Below are positions 33,330 through 62,274 of a DNA stretch of 64,000 nucleotides, in pieces (within the stretch, counting starts at the first letter, position 1; every line of letters starts with the position of its first letter). The notes below the pieces were generated by a model. That model saw only the letters and a program-made list of their open reading frames with translations. It made no database searches and was not told the DNA's origin. The translations under genes were made by a program, and so were the position numbers. This DNA is from Chitinivibrionia bacterium (GTDB lineage: Bacteria > Fibrobacterota > Chitinivibrionia > Chitinivibrionales > Chitinivibrionaceae). Location of the stretch: assembly GCA_009779925.1 (NCBI GenBank), contig WRAZ01000001.1, forward strand, positions 186,001 to 250,000. Reading direction: 5' to 3'.

Positions 33330-34826
33330 TTACAAACTTTCCGCTAAGTCTTTCGCAAAAACGGCAAGCGAATTGTCGCGCGCGCCGCATATTAAAATAG
33401 TTTCGTTTTCTTTTACTTCTTTTTTCAGTATTTCAGTTAATTTTTCGCGATTTTCGACAAAAACAAAGCGGTTTTTATCGCCTAATTCGTCGGCGAGTTT
33501 GTCGCTGTCTGTGCTTGTATCAGCTGTTCCGCCTGCATAAAATGTGGGAAGCAAATACAGTTTGTCATTTTCGCCGATATATTCGGAAAACATTGTTTTT
33601 AAGTCGTCGAACATAAATTTAAGCGGTCCAAAACCGTGCGGCTGAAACACCACCGAAAGCGGCGTTTTCCGCATCTTGGCGGCTGATATTGCCGCCGATA
33701 TTTTGTCGGGATTGTGCGCATAATCGTCAATTACGAGTATGTTTTTTGAAGCAGGGTATTTGTCAAATCTTCTGGCAATTCCACTGTAAGTCGCAAGCGC
33801 TTCGGCGATAGTTTTTTCGTCAATTCCCAATTCTTTGCAAACAGCAAGCGCCGCAAGTGCGTTTTTTATGGTATGTTCCCCCGTAAAATTTAGCACAAAT
33901 GTTGTGTTTTGCGTAGGGGCGAAACATTTTTCGCCCGTACTTGCACCATCTCCGTAGGGGTGGGTTTTAAACCCACCCTTACCGCAATCGCAATATGTAA
34001 ACGTCGAAGAATTCTCAGCGCAACTGTATCTTATCGGAAAATAATCCGCTTCTCGCGAAAATCCGAATGTTTTACCGTTAAAATCTGTAAAATGCTCGTC
34101 ATCTTTATTGAAAATCGTTAGTTTTGATTGAGCGGAAGCGGTTTTCAGCAAATCTACAACTTCGCCGACTTCTTTGTGGTCGCGGGAAATATTCAGCAAA
34201 ACCGAAATTTCGGGGAAATATCGCACAACCGTTCCGTCGCTTTCGTCGGCTTCAATCACCAAAAATTCACCGTCGCCTCTGAACGCGTTGCCTAATGTAG
34301 GGGCGTATTGCATACGCCCATTGGCAGCGGTTTTTGGGCGTATGCAATACGCCCCTACAGTTGTTCCTCGCAGAGAGTGTAGGTTTGCGCCACCGATAAA
34401 CGACGGTTTTTTACCCGCAAAGTCCAAAATGTGAAAAATCATTGCCGAGACCGAGCTTTTTCCGCTCGTTCCCGTAATCGAAATTGTGCGGTGTTTTTTT
34501 ACAATCGCCGCCAAAACTTCGCTTCTGTGAAGAATCGGGATATTCAGTTCGTTTGCTTTTTTTATGTCGGGATTATCGTTTTCTATTGCCGTCGAAACTA
34601 CAAGCGCTTGAGTTTTAGGTGAAATTCCACTTCCGTCTTGCAAGAACAGCGAAATTCCCTGTGATTTCAGTATGATTTCGTCTTCGCTGTTGCCATTCAC
34701 AGACCTGTCGCTTCCGCTGATTACGCAGTCTTTTACCAAGTATTGGGCAATCGCGCTCATTCCTATGCCCAAAATTCCGACGAAATGAAAGGAATTTATC
34801 TCTTTTTCGTCAATAAATAAAGACAT
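33330..34826 (-). CDS. murC: UDP-N-acetylmuramate--L-alanine ligase with two in-frame repeat insertions
   Basis: MurC adds L-alanine to UDP-MurNAc in peptidoglycan synthesis. The protein of about 498 residues has the ATP loop GTSGKSS, the metal-binding EADESDG, GEHTIKNALAALAV and the ligase C-terminal domain (VIDDYAHNPDKI). Palindromic repeats are inserted in frame at two places: residues about 157-177 (VGAYCIRP...GRMQYAPT) and about 282-305 (GKGGFKTHPYGDGAS). Both fall in surface loops, the first right before the EADESD region. Without them the length would be normal. The ATG at 34826 is preferred to a GTG at 34832, and it overlaps the end of the L,D-transpeptidase gene by 17 bases. Confidence 0.92.
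   Translation of the reverse strand: MSLFIDEKEINSFHFVGILGIGMSAIAQYLVKDCVISGSDRSVNGNSEDEIILKSQGISLFLQDGSGISPKTQALVVSTAIENDNPDIKKANELNIPILHRSEVLAAIVKKHRTISITGTSGKSSVSAMIFHILDFAGKKPSFIGGANLHSLRGTTVGAYCIRPKTAANGRMQYAPTLGNAFRGDGEFLVIEADESDGTVVRYFPEISVLLNISRDHKEVGEVVDLLKTASAQSKLTIFNKDDEHFTDFNGKTFGFSREADYFPIRYSCAENSSTFTYCDCGKGGFKTHPYGDGASTGEKCFAPTQNTTFVLNFTGEHTIKNALAALAVCKELGIDEKTIAEALATYSGIARRFDKYPASKNILVIDDYAHNPDKISAAISAAKMRKTPLSVVFQPHGFGPLKFMFDDLKTMFSEYIGENDKLYLLPTFYAGGTADTSTDSDKLADELGDKNRFVFVENREKLTEILKKEVKENETILICGARDNSLAVFAKDLAESL
33913..33982. repeat. two palindromic repeats inside murC (central domain)
   Basis: Two small palindromes lie side by side: GTAGGGGCGAAA...TTTCGCCC at 33913-33940 and GTAGGGGTGGGTTT.AAACCCACCCTTAC at 33954-33982. 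They belong to the GTAGGGGC family that is otherwise intergenic here, and they are read through in the murC frame. Confidence 0.8.
34297..34358. repeat. 62-bp nested palindrome inside murC
   Basis: GTAGGGGCGTATTGCATACG at the left is mirrored by CGTATGCAATACGCCCCTAC at the right, around a short spacer. Each arm is also its own hairpin (GGGCGTAT..ATACGCCC). Because the element is palindromic, both strands encode the same peptide type (YCIRP...GRMQYAPT). Confidence 0.85.
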
Positions 34827-35271
34827 AATCACCCGCTTTCATTAAATCAAAAAGTTTTATTACATCTTCGTTTTTCATTACGATACAGCCGTGCGAAAAA
34901 TGACTTTTGCCGACCTCGTTTTCTTTGTCCGTGCCGTGAATATATACGTATCGCGATTGCGTGTTTTCGTTGTGTTTTTCGAGCCCCGAAAGCCATAAAA
35001 TTCTGCTTGTGATTGCATTTTCTTTGTATATGTCGCCGCTTTTCCAGACCTCGCCTGTTTGTTTGCGGGACTTGAATACCGCGCCGATTTCGGCTCCTTT
35101 GCCGATTTTTTTGTGAATTTCAAACATTCCGCGCGGGGTTTTATTGGAGCCGCTCTTTTCGCCTCGTCCTTTTTTTGCGCAAGATATAGGGAAAGCAAAC
35201 TTTTCGCCGTTCTTAAGCAAAACCAACGAAAAATCATCGAAAGAAATTGTTGCTAAGTTTTTATTTTTCAT
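34810..35271 (-). CDS. L,D-transpeptidase-like (YkuD domain) protein
   Basis: A 153-residue YkuD-fold protein. It has the PrGmFeI region (NKTPRGMFEIHKK), then YIHGTDKENEVGKSHFSHGCIVMKNEDV, which holds the catalytic His and the SHGC cysteine of L,D-transpeptidases, enzymes that crosslink or remodel peptidoglycan. No signal peptide or membrane segment is visible, which is unusual for an enzyme that should act outside the cytoplasm. It is followed by murC with a 17-base overlap and starts just after the SRP RNA gene. Confidence 0.8.
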   Translation of the reverse strand: MKNKNLATISFDDFSLVLLKNGEKFAFPISCAKKGRGEKSGSNKTPRGMFEIHKKIGKGAEIGAVFKSRKQTGEVWKSGDIYKENAITSRILWLSGLEKHNENTQSRYVYIHGTDKENEVGKSHFSHGCIVMKNEDVIKLFDLMKAGDYVFIY

Positions 35272-35295
35272 AAATTTATAATTTTCCTAAAAAAG

Positions 35296-35393
35296 AGCTG
35301 AGTTATCCGCGGCACACCAAATACATTGCTTACCGTTGCTTCCTTCCGAATCTGGCGGGGTTCACAAGATTCAATTGCGCGGGACCCAACTCT
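35296..35393 (-). ncRNA. ffs: signal recognition particle RNA (4.5S-like)
   Basis: On the minus strand the transcript begins AGAGTTGGGTCCCGCG and ends CCGCGGATAACTCAGCTC, which pair to form the long SRP hairpin. The apical part contains the SRP-54-binding signature GGAAGGAAGCAACGG. A T run follows the 3' end. It lies 5 bases after the tRNA-Ser gene on the same strand, so both likely come from one precursor. Confidence 0.9.
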
Positions 35394-35398
35394 AAAAG

Positions 35399-35489
35399 TG
35401 GCGGAGAGAAAGGGATTCGAACCCTTGGTACAGTTGCCCATACACACACTTTCCAGGCGTGCTCCTTCGACCAACTCGGACATCTCTCC
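35399..35489 (-). tRNA. tRNA-Ser (anticodon GGA)
   Basis: A 91-base class II tRNA with the long variable arm typical of serine. The acceptor stem pairs GGAGAGA with TCTCTCC, the anticodon loop is CTGGAAA, and the T-arm has GGTTCGAATCC. CCA is encoded. It is followed at once by the SRP RNA gene. Confidence 0.96.
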
Positions 35490-35637: not shown

Positions 35638-35666
35638 GTAAGGGCAGGTTTGAAACCTGCCCCTAC
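35638..35666. repeat. GTAGGGGC-family palindromic repeat
   Basis: GTAAGGGCAGGTTT followed by GAAACCTGCCCCTAC, a 29-base palindrome between the serA stop and its terminator. It is one copy of the family listed in the findings. Confidence 0.85.
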
Positions 35667-36890: not shown

Positions 36891-36970
36891 GTAGGGTGCG
36901 GGTTTCAAACCCGCCCAACTATTCCCATTTACGTTGCCTTTATTTGGGCAGGTTTGAAACCTGCCCCTAC
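36891..36970. repeat. paired palindromic repeats between serC and serA
   Basis: Two GTAGGGGC-family palindromes: GTAGGGTGCGGGTTT.AAACCCGCCC at 36891-36916 and GGGCAGGTTTGAAACCTGCC plus CCTAC ending at 36970, about 30 bases apart. The outer ends are inverted (GTAGGG...CCCTAC), the same nested design as the copy in murC. Confidence 0.85.
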
Positions 36971-39947: not shown

Positions 39948-40013
39948 GGGCGAATAATCATTCGCCCAAATATCGTCGCCATCTGTAGGGGCGGGTTTCA
40001 AACCCGCCCTTAC
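39948..40013. repeat. two palindromic repeats after the PAC2 gene
   Basis: GGGCGAAT AATC ATTCGCCC at 39948-39967 is a perfect hairpin, followed 17 bases later by GTAGGGGCGGGTTT.AAACCCGCCCTTAC at 39985-40013. The pair may also act as a terminator for the convergent genes on either side. Confidence 0.8.
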
Positions 40014-41811: not shown

Positions 41812-42522
41812 ATGTTTAACAGGATTTTGGTGTGTTTGTCTCTTGGTTTTTTTGTGGTGTTTTGCTTTGTAATGCTCATTCCATACACTATTATGTTTCT
41901 TCCTGTACTGAACAAGCAACAACAGCGCTTGGCTTATTTTGTTCAGTGGTTTTGCTCTCGTTTCTGCCTTTTTTCTTCGGGTGCAAAAGTTAAGTTTACG
42001 GGCGTAGAAAATGTTCCCAAAGACAACATTTATTGTATTGTCGCCAACCATCAGGGAATGCTCGATATTCCGATTTTAATGCGCATTTCCCCTTGGACTT
42101 TAGGGTTTATCACCAAAAAAGAATTGCGCTACCTTCCTGTATTAAATGTTTGGATGATTGCGCTCGGCTGTATCTTTTTAGACAGAAAAAGCGCCCGAAA
42201 AGCCGTCGGTGTATTCGGCAAAGCCGCAAAGCAGTTGCAAAGCGGACATCCGATGGCAATTTTCCCTGAAGGCACGCGCAGTAAAAACGGCGAAATTGCG
42301 GATTTTAAGGCAGGCGCATTAAAACTCGTGATAAAAGCCCAAGTTCCCATAGTTCCTGTAAGCATCAACGGAAGCGGAATTGTGGAGGGTCGGAATAAAT
42401 CAAAAATTGTATCTGTCGTCGTTCATCCCAGAATCGAATTTAGCGAAATAGCCGATATGGAAACTGTAGAAATAGCCGCAAAAATCCGCTCAATTATAGT
42501 TTCGGCGGCGAAAAAACAATGA
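41812..42522 (+). CDS. 1-acyl-sn-glycerol-3-phosphate acyltransferase (PlsC family), second copy
   Basis: A 236-residue acyltransferase with an N-terminal membrane helix, the HX4D motif NHQGMLD, FLDRKSARKA and FPEGTRSKNG. AAAGGAAAAATT precedes the ATG at 41812; the longer frame to 41725 has no good start. Its stop overlaps the start of the glycosyltransferase (ATGA), so the two are coupled. The pairing suggests that one acylates and the other glycosylates a lipid, but this is inference. Confidence 0.88.
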   Translation: MFNRILVCLSLGFFVVFCFVMLIPYTIMFLPVLNKQQQRLAYFVQWFCSRFCLFSSGAKVKFTGVENVPKDNIYCIVANHQGMLDIPILMRISPWTLGFITKKELRYLPVLNVWMIALGCIFLDRKSARKAVGVFGKAAKQLQSGHPMAIFPEGTRSKNGEIADFKAGALKLVIKAQVPIVPVSINGSGIVEGRNKSKIVSVVVHPRIEFSEIADMETVEIAAKIRSIIVSAAKKQ

Positions 42523-43697
42523 TTTTTGCTACAGTCGGCGCAGTTGTTTCTTCGCTTTATTTAGCAGTTTGCTTTTATTTGTCGCGTGGGCTTAAGAATG
42601 TGGCTTCGACAGGCTCAGCCACCGAGACTGAGCCATCGCGACATAAGCTACCGTCTTCATTCGCTAATTCGGTGGCTGAGCCTGTCGAAGCCACCACTGC
42701 AGTAAGCATAATAATCTGCGCGCGAAACGAAGAAAAAAACATTTCACATCTTCTTAACTGCTTGCTTTCTCAAACATATTCACCCGAATTACTGCAAATT
42801 ATAGTCGCCGACGACCGTTCCACCGACAACACCGCCGAAATAGTTTTGTCTTTCAAAGAAAAATTAAAAAATCTCTCGCTTATCCGAATTACACGAACAG
42901 GGGAGGGCTTTTCTCCAAAAAAATACGCGTTCGAGCAAGCAATAAAAATTGCCGTCGGCGAAATTATTTTGCAAACCGACGCAGATAGCATTGTTCCGAA
43001 CGACTGGATAGAAAAATCTGTTGCGCCTTTCGCTAATGAAAAAATTGCACTTTCGCAAGGAATTGTAAAATATCGCTTTGACAAAGGCAACAAAATTTCG
43101 CCAATTCTTAAAGTTTACCAAAACTTCGACTTTCTTTCTCACGGAATTGTAGCCGCCGCGAGTATCGGAAAAAACATTCCGCTTAACGCAAATGCCAACA
43201 ATTTCGCCTTTCGCAAAAAAGACTACGAAACATCGGGCGGCTACGGAAATCTAACTCAAGCTGTAGGCGGCGACGACGGTCTTTTAATGCAAAAAATATG
43301 GGAAAGCGGCAAAAAAATACATTTCAACGCAAACTCAATCGTAGAAACACAACCCGAATATTCGTGGAAAAATCTAATAAATCAGCGCAAAAAATGGGGC
43401 TCGGAAACGCGCTTTTATTTGCCGAAACAAACGGCAATCCTCGCTGTTATTTTCATGTTTTATTGCTTTATATTTGTCTTTCCCATTCTTTTTATCGTAA
43501 AAATTATCGGCGAACTGTTTTTTATGCGCAGGGGATTGGCAATTTTCGACGAAAAAAATCTCCTGCCACATATAATCTGGACTTCACCGCTGAATTTATT
43601 CATAACGATTTATTCGGTAATCTGCGGAATTTTTGCCAAATTTGAATGGAAGGGCGATGTTTATAAGAGTAAAACAAAGAGAAAAGAGAAACTGTAA
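42519..43697 (+). CDS. membrane glycosyltransferase (GT2) with in-frame repeat insertion
   Basis: A 392-residue family 2 glycosyltransferase. One N-terminal helix (residues 4-24) is followed by the GT-A domain (VSIIICARNEEKNI, IIVADDRSTDNTAEI, LQTDADSIVPNDW), an acceptor region with GGDDGLLMQKI, the QRKKWGSE motif (Q/RxxRW-like) and two C-terminal helices. Residues about 28-59 (ASTGSATETEPSRH...VAEPVEAT) come from a palindromic repeat inserted in frame between the helix and the catalytic domain. The stop lies inside the 3' end of the convergent RNase P RNA gene. Confidence 0.85.
   Translation: MIFATVGAVVSSLYLAVCFYLSRGLKNVASTGSATETEPSRHKLPSSFANSVAEPVEATTAVSIIICARNEEKNISHLLNCLLSQTYSPELLQIIVADDRSTDNTAEIVLSFKEKLKNLSLIRITRTGEGFSPKKYAFEQAIKIAVGEIILQTDADSIVPNDWIEKSVAPFANEKIALSQGIVKYRFDKGNKISPILKVYQNFDFLSHGIVAAASIGKNIPLNANANNFAFRKKDYETSGGYGNLTQAVGGDDGLLMQKIWESGKKIHFNANSIVETQPEYSWKNLINQRKKWGSETRFYLPKQTAILAVIFMFYCFIFVFPILFIVKIIGELFFMRRGLAIFDEKNLLPHIIWTSPLNLFITIYSVICGIFAKFEWKGDVYKSKTKRKEKL
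42600..42694. repeat. inverted repeat inserted in the glycosyltransferase gene
   Basis: GTGGCTTCGACAGGCTCAGC plus CACCG at 42600-42624 is mirrored without mismatch by CGGTGGCTGAGCCTGTCGAA plus GCCAC at 42670-42694, with 45 bases between. TTCGACAGGCTCAGCCACC is a repeat type seen in many unrelated genomes. The whole 95-base unit keeps the reading frame. Confidence 0.88.
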
Positions 43698-53907: not shown

Positions 53908-53936
53908 GTAGGGGCGGGTTTGAAATCCGCCCTTAC
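53908..53936. repeat. GTAGGGGC-family palindromic repeat
   Basis: GTAGGGGCGGGTTTGAAATCCGCCCTTAC in two halves, a 29-base palindrome with one mismatch, just after the PorV/TPR gene. Confidence 0.8.
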
Positions 53937-62245: not shown

Positions 62246-62274
62246 GTAAGGGCAGGTTTAAAACCTGCCCCTAC
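62246..62274. repeat. GTAGGGGC-family palindromic repeat
   Basis: GTAAGGGCAGGTTT.AAAACCTGCCCCTAC, a 29-base palindrome between the convergent O-methyltransferase and bamA genes. Confidence 0.85.

Follow-up and report, generated by a model that had tools for sequence, protein, structure and literature searches.

An inverted pair of GTAG-tagged REP palindromes in-frame within a MurC-like ligase gene of a Chitinivibrionia bacterium

Introduction

How does the reading frame of a Mur ligase come to contain a long, perfect palindrome, and does the gene still work? The question arises in a 64,000-nucleotide stretch of contig WRAZ01000001.1 from a Chitinivibrionia bacterium (hereafter, the window), in which an original prediction had described a palindromic repeat inserted in-frame into murC, next to the metal-binding EADESD motif. 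That GTAG-tagged repetitive extragenic palindromes (REPs) can lie within genes, even twice in one gene, is already known: in Opitutus terrae they encode 20-30 residues and include double inserts in uvrA (Di Nocera et al. 2013, PMC3733652). A published model of the persistence of REPINs, which are inverted REP doublets, assumes that any gene entered by a copy is destroyed (PMC8049555). We therefore set out the anatomy of the element, its distribution in the genome, the corresponding site in a relative and the state of the host gene.

Results and Discussion

The element is an inverted doublet of one REP sequence

The element occupies positions 34297-34358 and combines a 23-mer, GTAGGGGCGTATTGCATACGCCC, with a 16-bp spacer (34320-34335) and the reverse complement of the same 23-mer. 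The first unit (34297-34319, plus strand) consists of an unpaired GTAG followed by GGGCGTAT-TGC-ATACGCCC, giving an 8-bp stem and a 3-nt loop, and is identical to the sequence found throughout the genome (see below); the second lies inverted at 34336-34358 on the minus strand. Its two arms (34296-34320 and 34335-34359) match perfectly along 25 nt. The single strand folds at -53 kcal/mol, where shuffled sequences average -24.7 (z = -10.95) and none of 200 does as well. The minus-strand ORF at 33330-34832 remains open through the element, which it reads as VGAYCIRPKTAANGRMQYAPT immediately upstream of GNAF...EADESD; a predicted tryptic peptide such as MQYAPTLGNAFR would span the REP-encoded stretch. 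The coordinates given in the original prediction are exact, and its in-frame reading is confirmed. Its remark that either orientation encodes a similar peptide is correct but trivial, the doublet being an inverted repeat: one REP arm yields VGAYCIRP or RGVLHTP, and the other GVCNTPL, GRMQYAPT or AYAIRPY.

Searching Rfam with the element returned only sub-threshold hairpin matches, and a literature search on the exact REP sequence or its peptides returned nothing relevant. REPs of the GTAG class are recognized by an unpaired GTAG beside a short palindrome with a stem of 6-13 bp and a short loop, by a high and dispersed copy number, and by a predominantly intergenic placement. The exact 23-mer occurs 75 times in this 2.5-Mb genome, and a looser GTAG-REP pattern matches 241 times; reversed controls gave 0 in both searches. 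The nearest relative in our comparison, a Chitinivibrionia metagenome-assembled genome (WRFX01, hereafter G001), has no exact copy and one loose match, while one exact copy is present in a further genome (G016). Tag, stem and loop length, copy number, head-to-head dimers and a fraction of copies inside ORFs are all features shared with the GTAG-class REPs of PMC3733652, a text in which the Fibrobacterota are not among the names.

We sampled forty stretches of the genome, nearly all of them around REP copies, and found 33 inverted doublets of 62-96 bp, the murC copy included. Their spacers vary between copies, with AAATCGCCGAC-like motifs common to many. An inverted REP doublet with a variable spacer, folding as a single hairpin and dispersed as a unit, is also the hallmark of REPINs (Bertels and Rainey 2011, PMC3116915), and two inverted copies of one GTAG-tagged palindrome would make the window element a REPIN, the simplest form of BIME. 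As to movement as a unit, sites in G001 that lack the element indicate insertion, transposition itself not having been witnessed.

The insert had been likened to the Rickettsia palindromic elements, and the likeness extends to the mode of working, since both are palindromic repeats in-frame within protein-coding genes. It does not extend to the family: PMC3733652 places RPE-4 and RPE-6 in the CGTC class, and with its GTAG tag and different stem the murC insert is not, by sequence, a Rickettsia palindromic element. Similarly, the insert had been called the same type as the palindromes between genes elsewhere in the window, which is right for the class (GTAG-type) but not for the sequence, as their stems differ. 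At least five such GTAG palindromes, of the GGGC(A/G)GGTTT type, are intergenic in the 64 kb, at 35638-35666, 36946-36970, 39985-40013, 53908-53932 and 62246-62274.

The exact 23-mer was also found in 17 IMG/VR viral contigs (L126-L142), so the REP sequence also exists outside this genome. Plasmid and phage collections searched for it gave no match.

The corresponding site in a relative is empty

The MurC-like protein shares 84% amino-acid identity with its orthologue in G001 (locus L039, WRFX01000134), where the position of the insert is a clean empty site. In addition, the spacing LRxxxxLGN at this position is invariant among the readable MurC-like homologues, that is, those read correctly, homologues read on the wrong strand being ignored. 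With the G001 site empty and the homologues keeping the short spacing, we conclude that the insert is real and lineage-specific, bringing a net gain of 20 residues in place of the roughly 21 first proposed. The original prediction correctly foresaw that it would lie in a variable region ahead of EADESD and be missing from relatives. Neither arm departs from the 23-mer found across the genome, so the insertion is young.

The same ORF carries another palindromic insert, overlooked in the original prediction, at 33913-33982. It consists of two different GTAG palindromes, GTAG-GGGCGAAACATTTTTCGCCC followed by GTAGGGGTGGGTTTTAAACCCACCCTTAC, is absent from G001 and adds a net 27 residues relative to it. 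An AlphaFold model of the protein, built on a 3-sequence alignment, was poor (pLDDT 57) and placed both inserts within segments below 50; we do not count it as evidence.

An assembly or binning artefact deserves thought in a draft of 88 contigs, probably metagenome-assembled, when the element in question is repetitive. The 62-bp repeat, however, is shorter than an ordinary read, lies deep within a 270-kb contig between unique flanks and leaves the frame intact, and about ten other genes show a like pattern, making such an error exceedingly improbable.

The host gene is a conserved paralogue of MurC

The ORF, with a likely ATG start at 34824-34826, retains the GTSGKS, EADESD and DDYAHNP motifs. 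Scored with its inserts against TIGR01082, the protein reaches 288.3 bits, below the curated equivalog cut-off of 335.1, a shortfall that is perhaps partly due to the inserts themselves. An undecorated homologue from another genome (G057) scores 335.3, which places the window gene as a borderline MurC-like paralogue. A canonical MurC, matched as one unbroken stretch at 402.6 bits, is encoded on another contig of the same genome (C12; L143:5878-7281) in a murC-ftsA-ftsZ cluster, with one ORF before ftsA and then ftsZ. The neighbours of the window gene are a ksgA-type gene and an L,D-transpeptidase gene, and homologues of its type were found throughout the phylum. The window gene is thus a conserved, divergent MurC paralogue, distinct from the canonical MurC encoded in the division cluster, and with the latter present elsewhere in the genome, the description of the host as an essential enzyme is unproven.

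Two MurC-like ligases seem to be kept across the phylum. At the position of QPHRYSR in the solved MurC 1gqq, the window-type ligase reads QPHGFGP, and from this motif its substrate may differ from that of MurC.

The presence of a second, canonical MurC raises the question of whether the insertion simply damaged a redundant paralogue that is becoming a pseudogene, with a frame that has stayed open solely because little time has passed; once transcribed, the 25-bp hairpin might also depress expression, RNase III being one possible route. That one ORF accepted two inserts, and that the REP arms are still perfect and hence recent, would fit such decay. Against it, neither insert brought a stop or a frameshift, the catalytic motifs are intact, the paralogue is conserved across the phylum, and BioB, RsmE and MutL, which are in-frame targets too (see below), are not obviously redundant. 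Host-gene dN/dS relative to G001 is about 0.10, indicating purifying selection, although most of this signal may be older than the murC insertion. Nor are the branches unequal: with a third genome (G002) as the outgroup, we counted 13 unique changes on the window lineage and 13 on that of G001. Purifying selection and the lack of acceleration suggest that the window gene is probably functional, and we regard decay into a pseudogene as quite unlikely.

We therefore favour, with a probability of about 0.88, the explanation that the element is a REPIN, a non-autonomous miniature mobile element whose family multiplied in the window's species after its split from the congener G001, and that one copy entered a loop of the MurC-like ligase in-frame with a gain of about 20 residues. 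The explanation is built on the observed anatomy, copy number, empty site and in-frame reading, and on the purifying selection acting on the host gene over the divergence of the two genomes. The copy would have entered the variable loop between the P-loop region and EADESD; with the frame kept and the repeat stop-free in that frame, the enzyme would have lengthened accordingly, and the protein is probably made with the REP-encoded peptide and still working.

About one third of the examined doublets lie within genes

Of the 33 doublets, about 11 lie in-frame within ORFs that we judged to be genes, and 22 were assigned to no gene. Pfam supports nine of the 11 hosts: the MurC-like ligase, MutL, an ABC exporter, ComEC, a heptaprenyl diphosphate synthase component I protein, RsmE, BioB, fumarase and one repeat protein. 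The other two are a long outer-membrane-type protein and a near-paralogue of the repeat protein. Under a stricter test based on codon usage in both flanks, eight of the 33 doublets pass. The G001 orthologues of MutL, BioB, RsmE and the outer-membrane-type protein are without the element, but loop length itself varies in RsmE, MutL and the outer-membrane-type protein, so that the exact net insertion is not measurable there. A fumarase homologue was looked for in G001 and G002 and not found.

The base before GTAG is a pyrimidine in all 33 doublets, and the base after CTAC a purine in 32, suggesting that the mobile unit is probably one base longer on each side. Doublet lengths of 1 mod 3 make up 9 of the 11 intragenic copies and 10 of the 22 others (one-sided Fisher p = 0.05), a weak bias spotted post hoc; such an excess is what one would predict were the length plus 2 constrained to multiples of three. 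At 62 bp for a net 60, the murC copy breaks this rule, so a small indel must have come with its insertion.

Palindromy had been offered as a reason why such elements are tolerated in genes. Counting open readings over the six combinations of orientation and frame, however, we found about half to be open in either setting, 2.9 of 6 for intragenic copies and 3.0 of 6 for the rest. Intragenic copies thus show no excess of stop-free readings, nothing points to an adaptation of the element to coding, and the survival of in-frame, stop-free insertions suffices as an explanation. For a copy in a gene to persist, the right frame, an open reading and a tolerant loop would have to come together, through a filter and not a benefit. 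The same figures bear on whether the palindrome is a selected module, regulatory as an mRNA hairpin or coding for a useful peptide. The hairpin is strong, and the peptide VGAYCIRP...GVCNTPLQ recurs in many unrelated proteins; yet the targets have no common function, the inserts are read in different frames, and copies outside genes are at least as open as the intragenic ones. We consider selection for such a module very unlikely.

A broader proposal is that, in this lineage, bursts of REPINs regularly supply conserved enzymes with new in-frame loops, a Y-GTAG...CTAC-R unit tending to add a multiple of three so that about one third of the surviving copies lie in genes, under a driver other than a resident RAYT. 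This would run counter to the model in which gene entry is destructive. We hold the proposal to be improbable.

No cognate transposase was detected

Mobilization of the REPIN would probably depend on a Y1 (RAYT-like) transposase that acted in trans or has since disappeared. The Y1 transposase profile (PF01797) is present in 41 of the 61 genomes of the comparison set but was found neither in G001 nor in the window's genome, which is 97.6% complete; a RAYT flanked by the same REP was thus not detected there. We inspected 24 Y1 loci of relatives, in two sets of 12, and none was flanked by the exact REP; they yielded no cognate RAYT-REP pair, or REPtron. Some of these loci have palindromes of their own nearby and were rejected as the cognate REPtron: GGAG-GTGTAGGC... 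at L124, GTAG-AGACGTTGC... at L117, and arrays with GCAG-GGGCGTAATACGCCC at L052. No Y1 gene was found in the 12 REP-bearing IMG/VR records tested of the 17. The mobilizing enzyme is a candidate for having been lost, for acting in trans, or for lying within the missing part of the draft.

The family differs from the GTAG-class REPs of PMC3733652 in that about one third of the examined doublets are intragenic and no Y1 transposase was detected. The difference from the REPINs of P. fluorescens SBW25 is similar: there, REPs accompany RAYTs and 14 of 1067 REP 16-mers overlap genes (PMC3116915), whereas here 11 of 33 doublets lie in genes and a RAYT was not detected. What our analysis adds is a REP family in a phylum unnamed in PMC3733652, with a high genic share, several empty sites in a congener and no detectable RAYT. 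With about one third of its examined doublets in genes, and a congener that shows sites without the element, this genome offers a natural data set on how often, and where in proteins, insertions are tolerated. For annotators there is a warning that peptides resembling VGAYCIRP or GVCNTPLQ in this group are derived from the repeat.

Other features of the window

A different palindrome, with perfect 26-nt arms (GTGGCTTCGACAGGCTCAGCCACCGA), lies at 42600-42694, within the reading frame of a glycosyltransferase family 2 gene (42519-43697) and close to the N-terminus. The 16-mer at the core of this palindrome has seven copies in the genome and none in G001, and a similar sequence adjoins the REPIN in MutL. 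Elsewhere in the window, genes for a small SRP RNA (35293-35391) and a tRNA (35402-35489) lie side by side on the minus strand.
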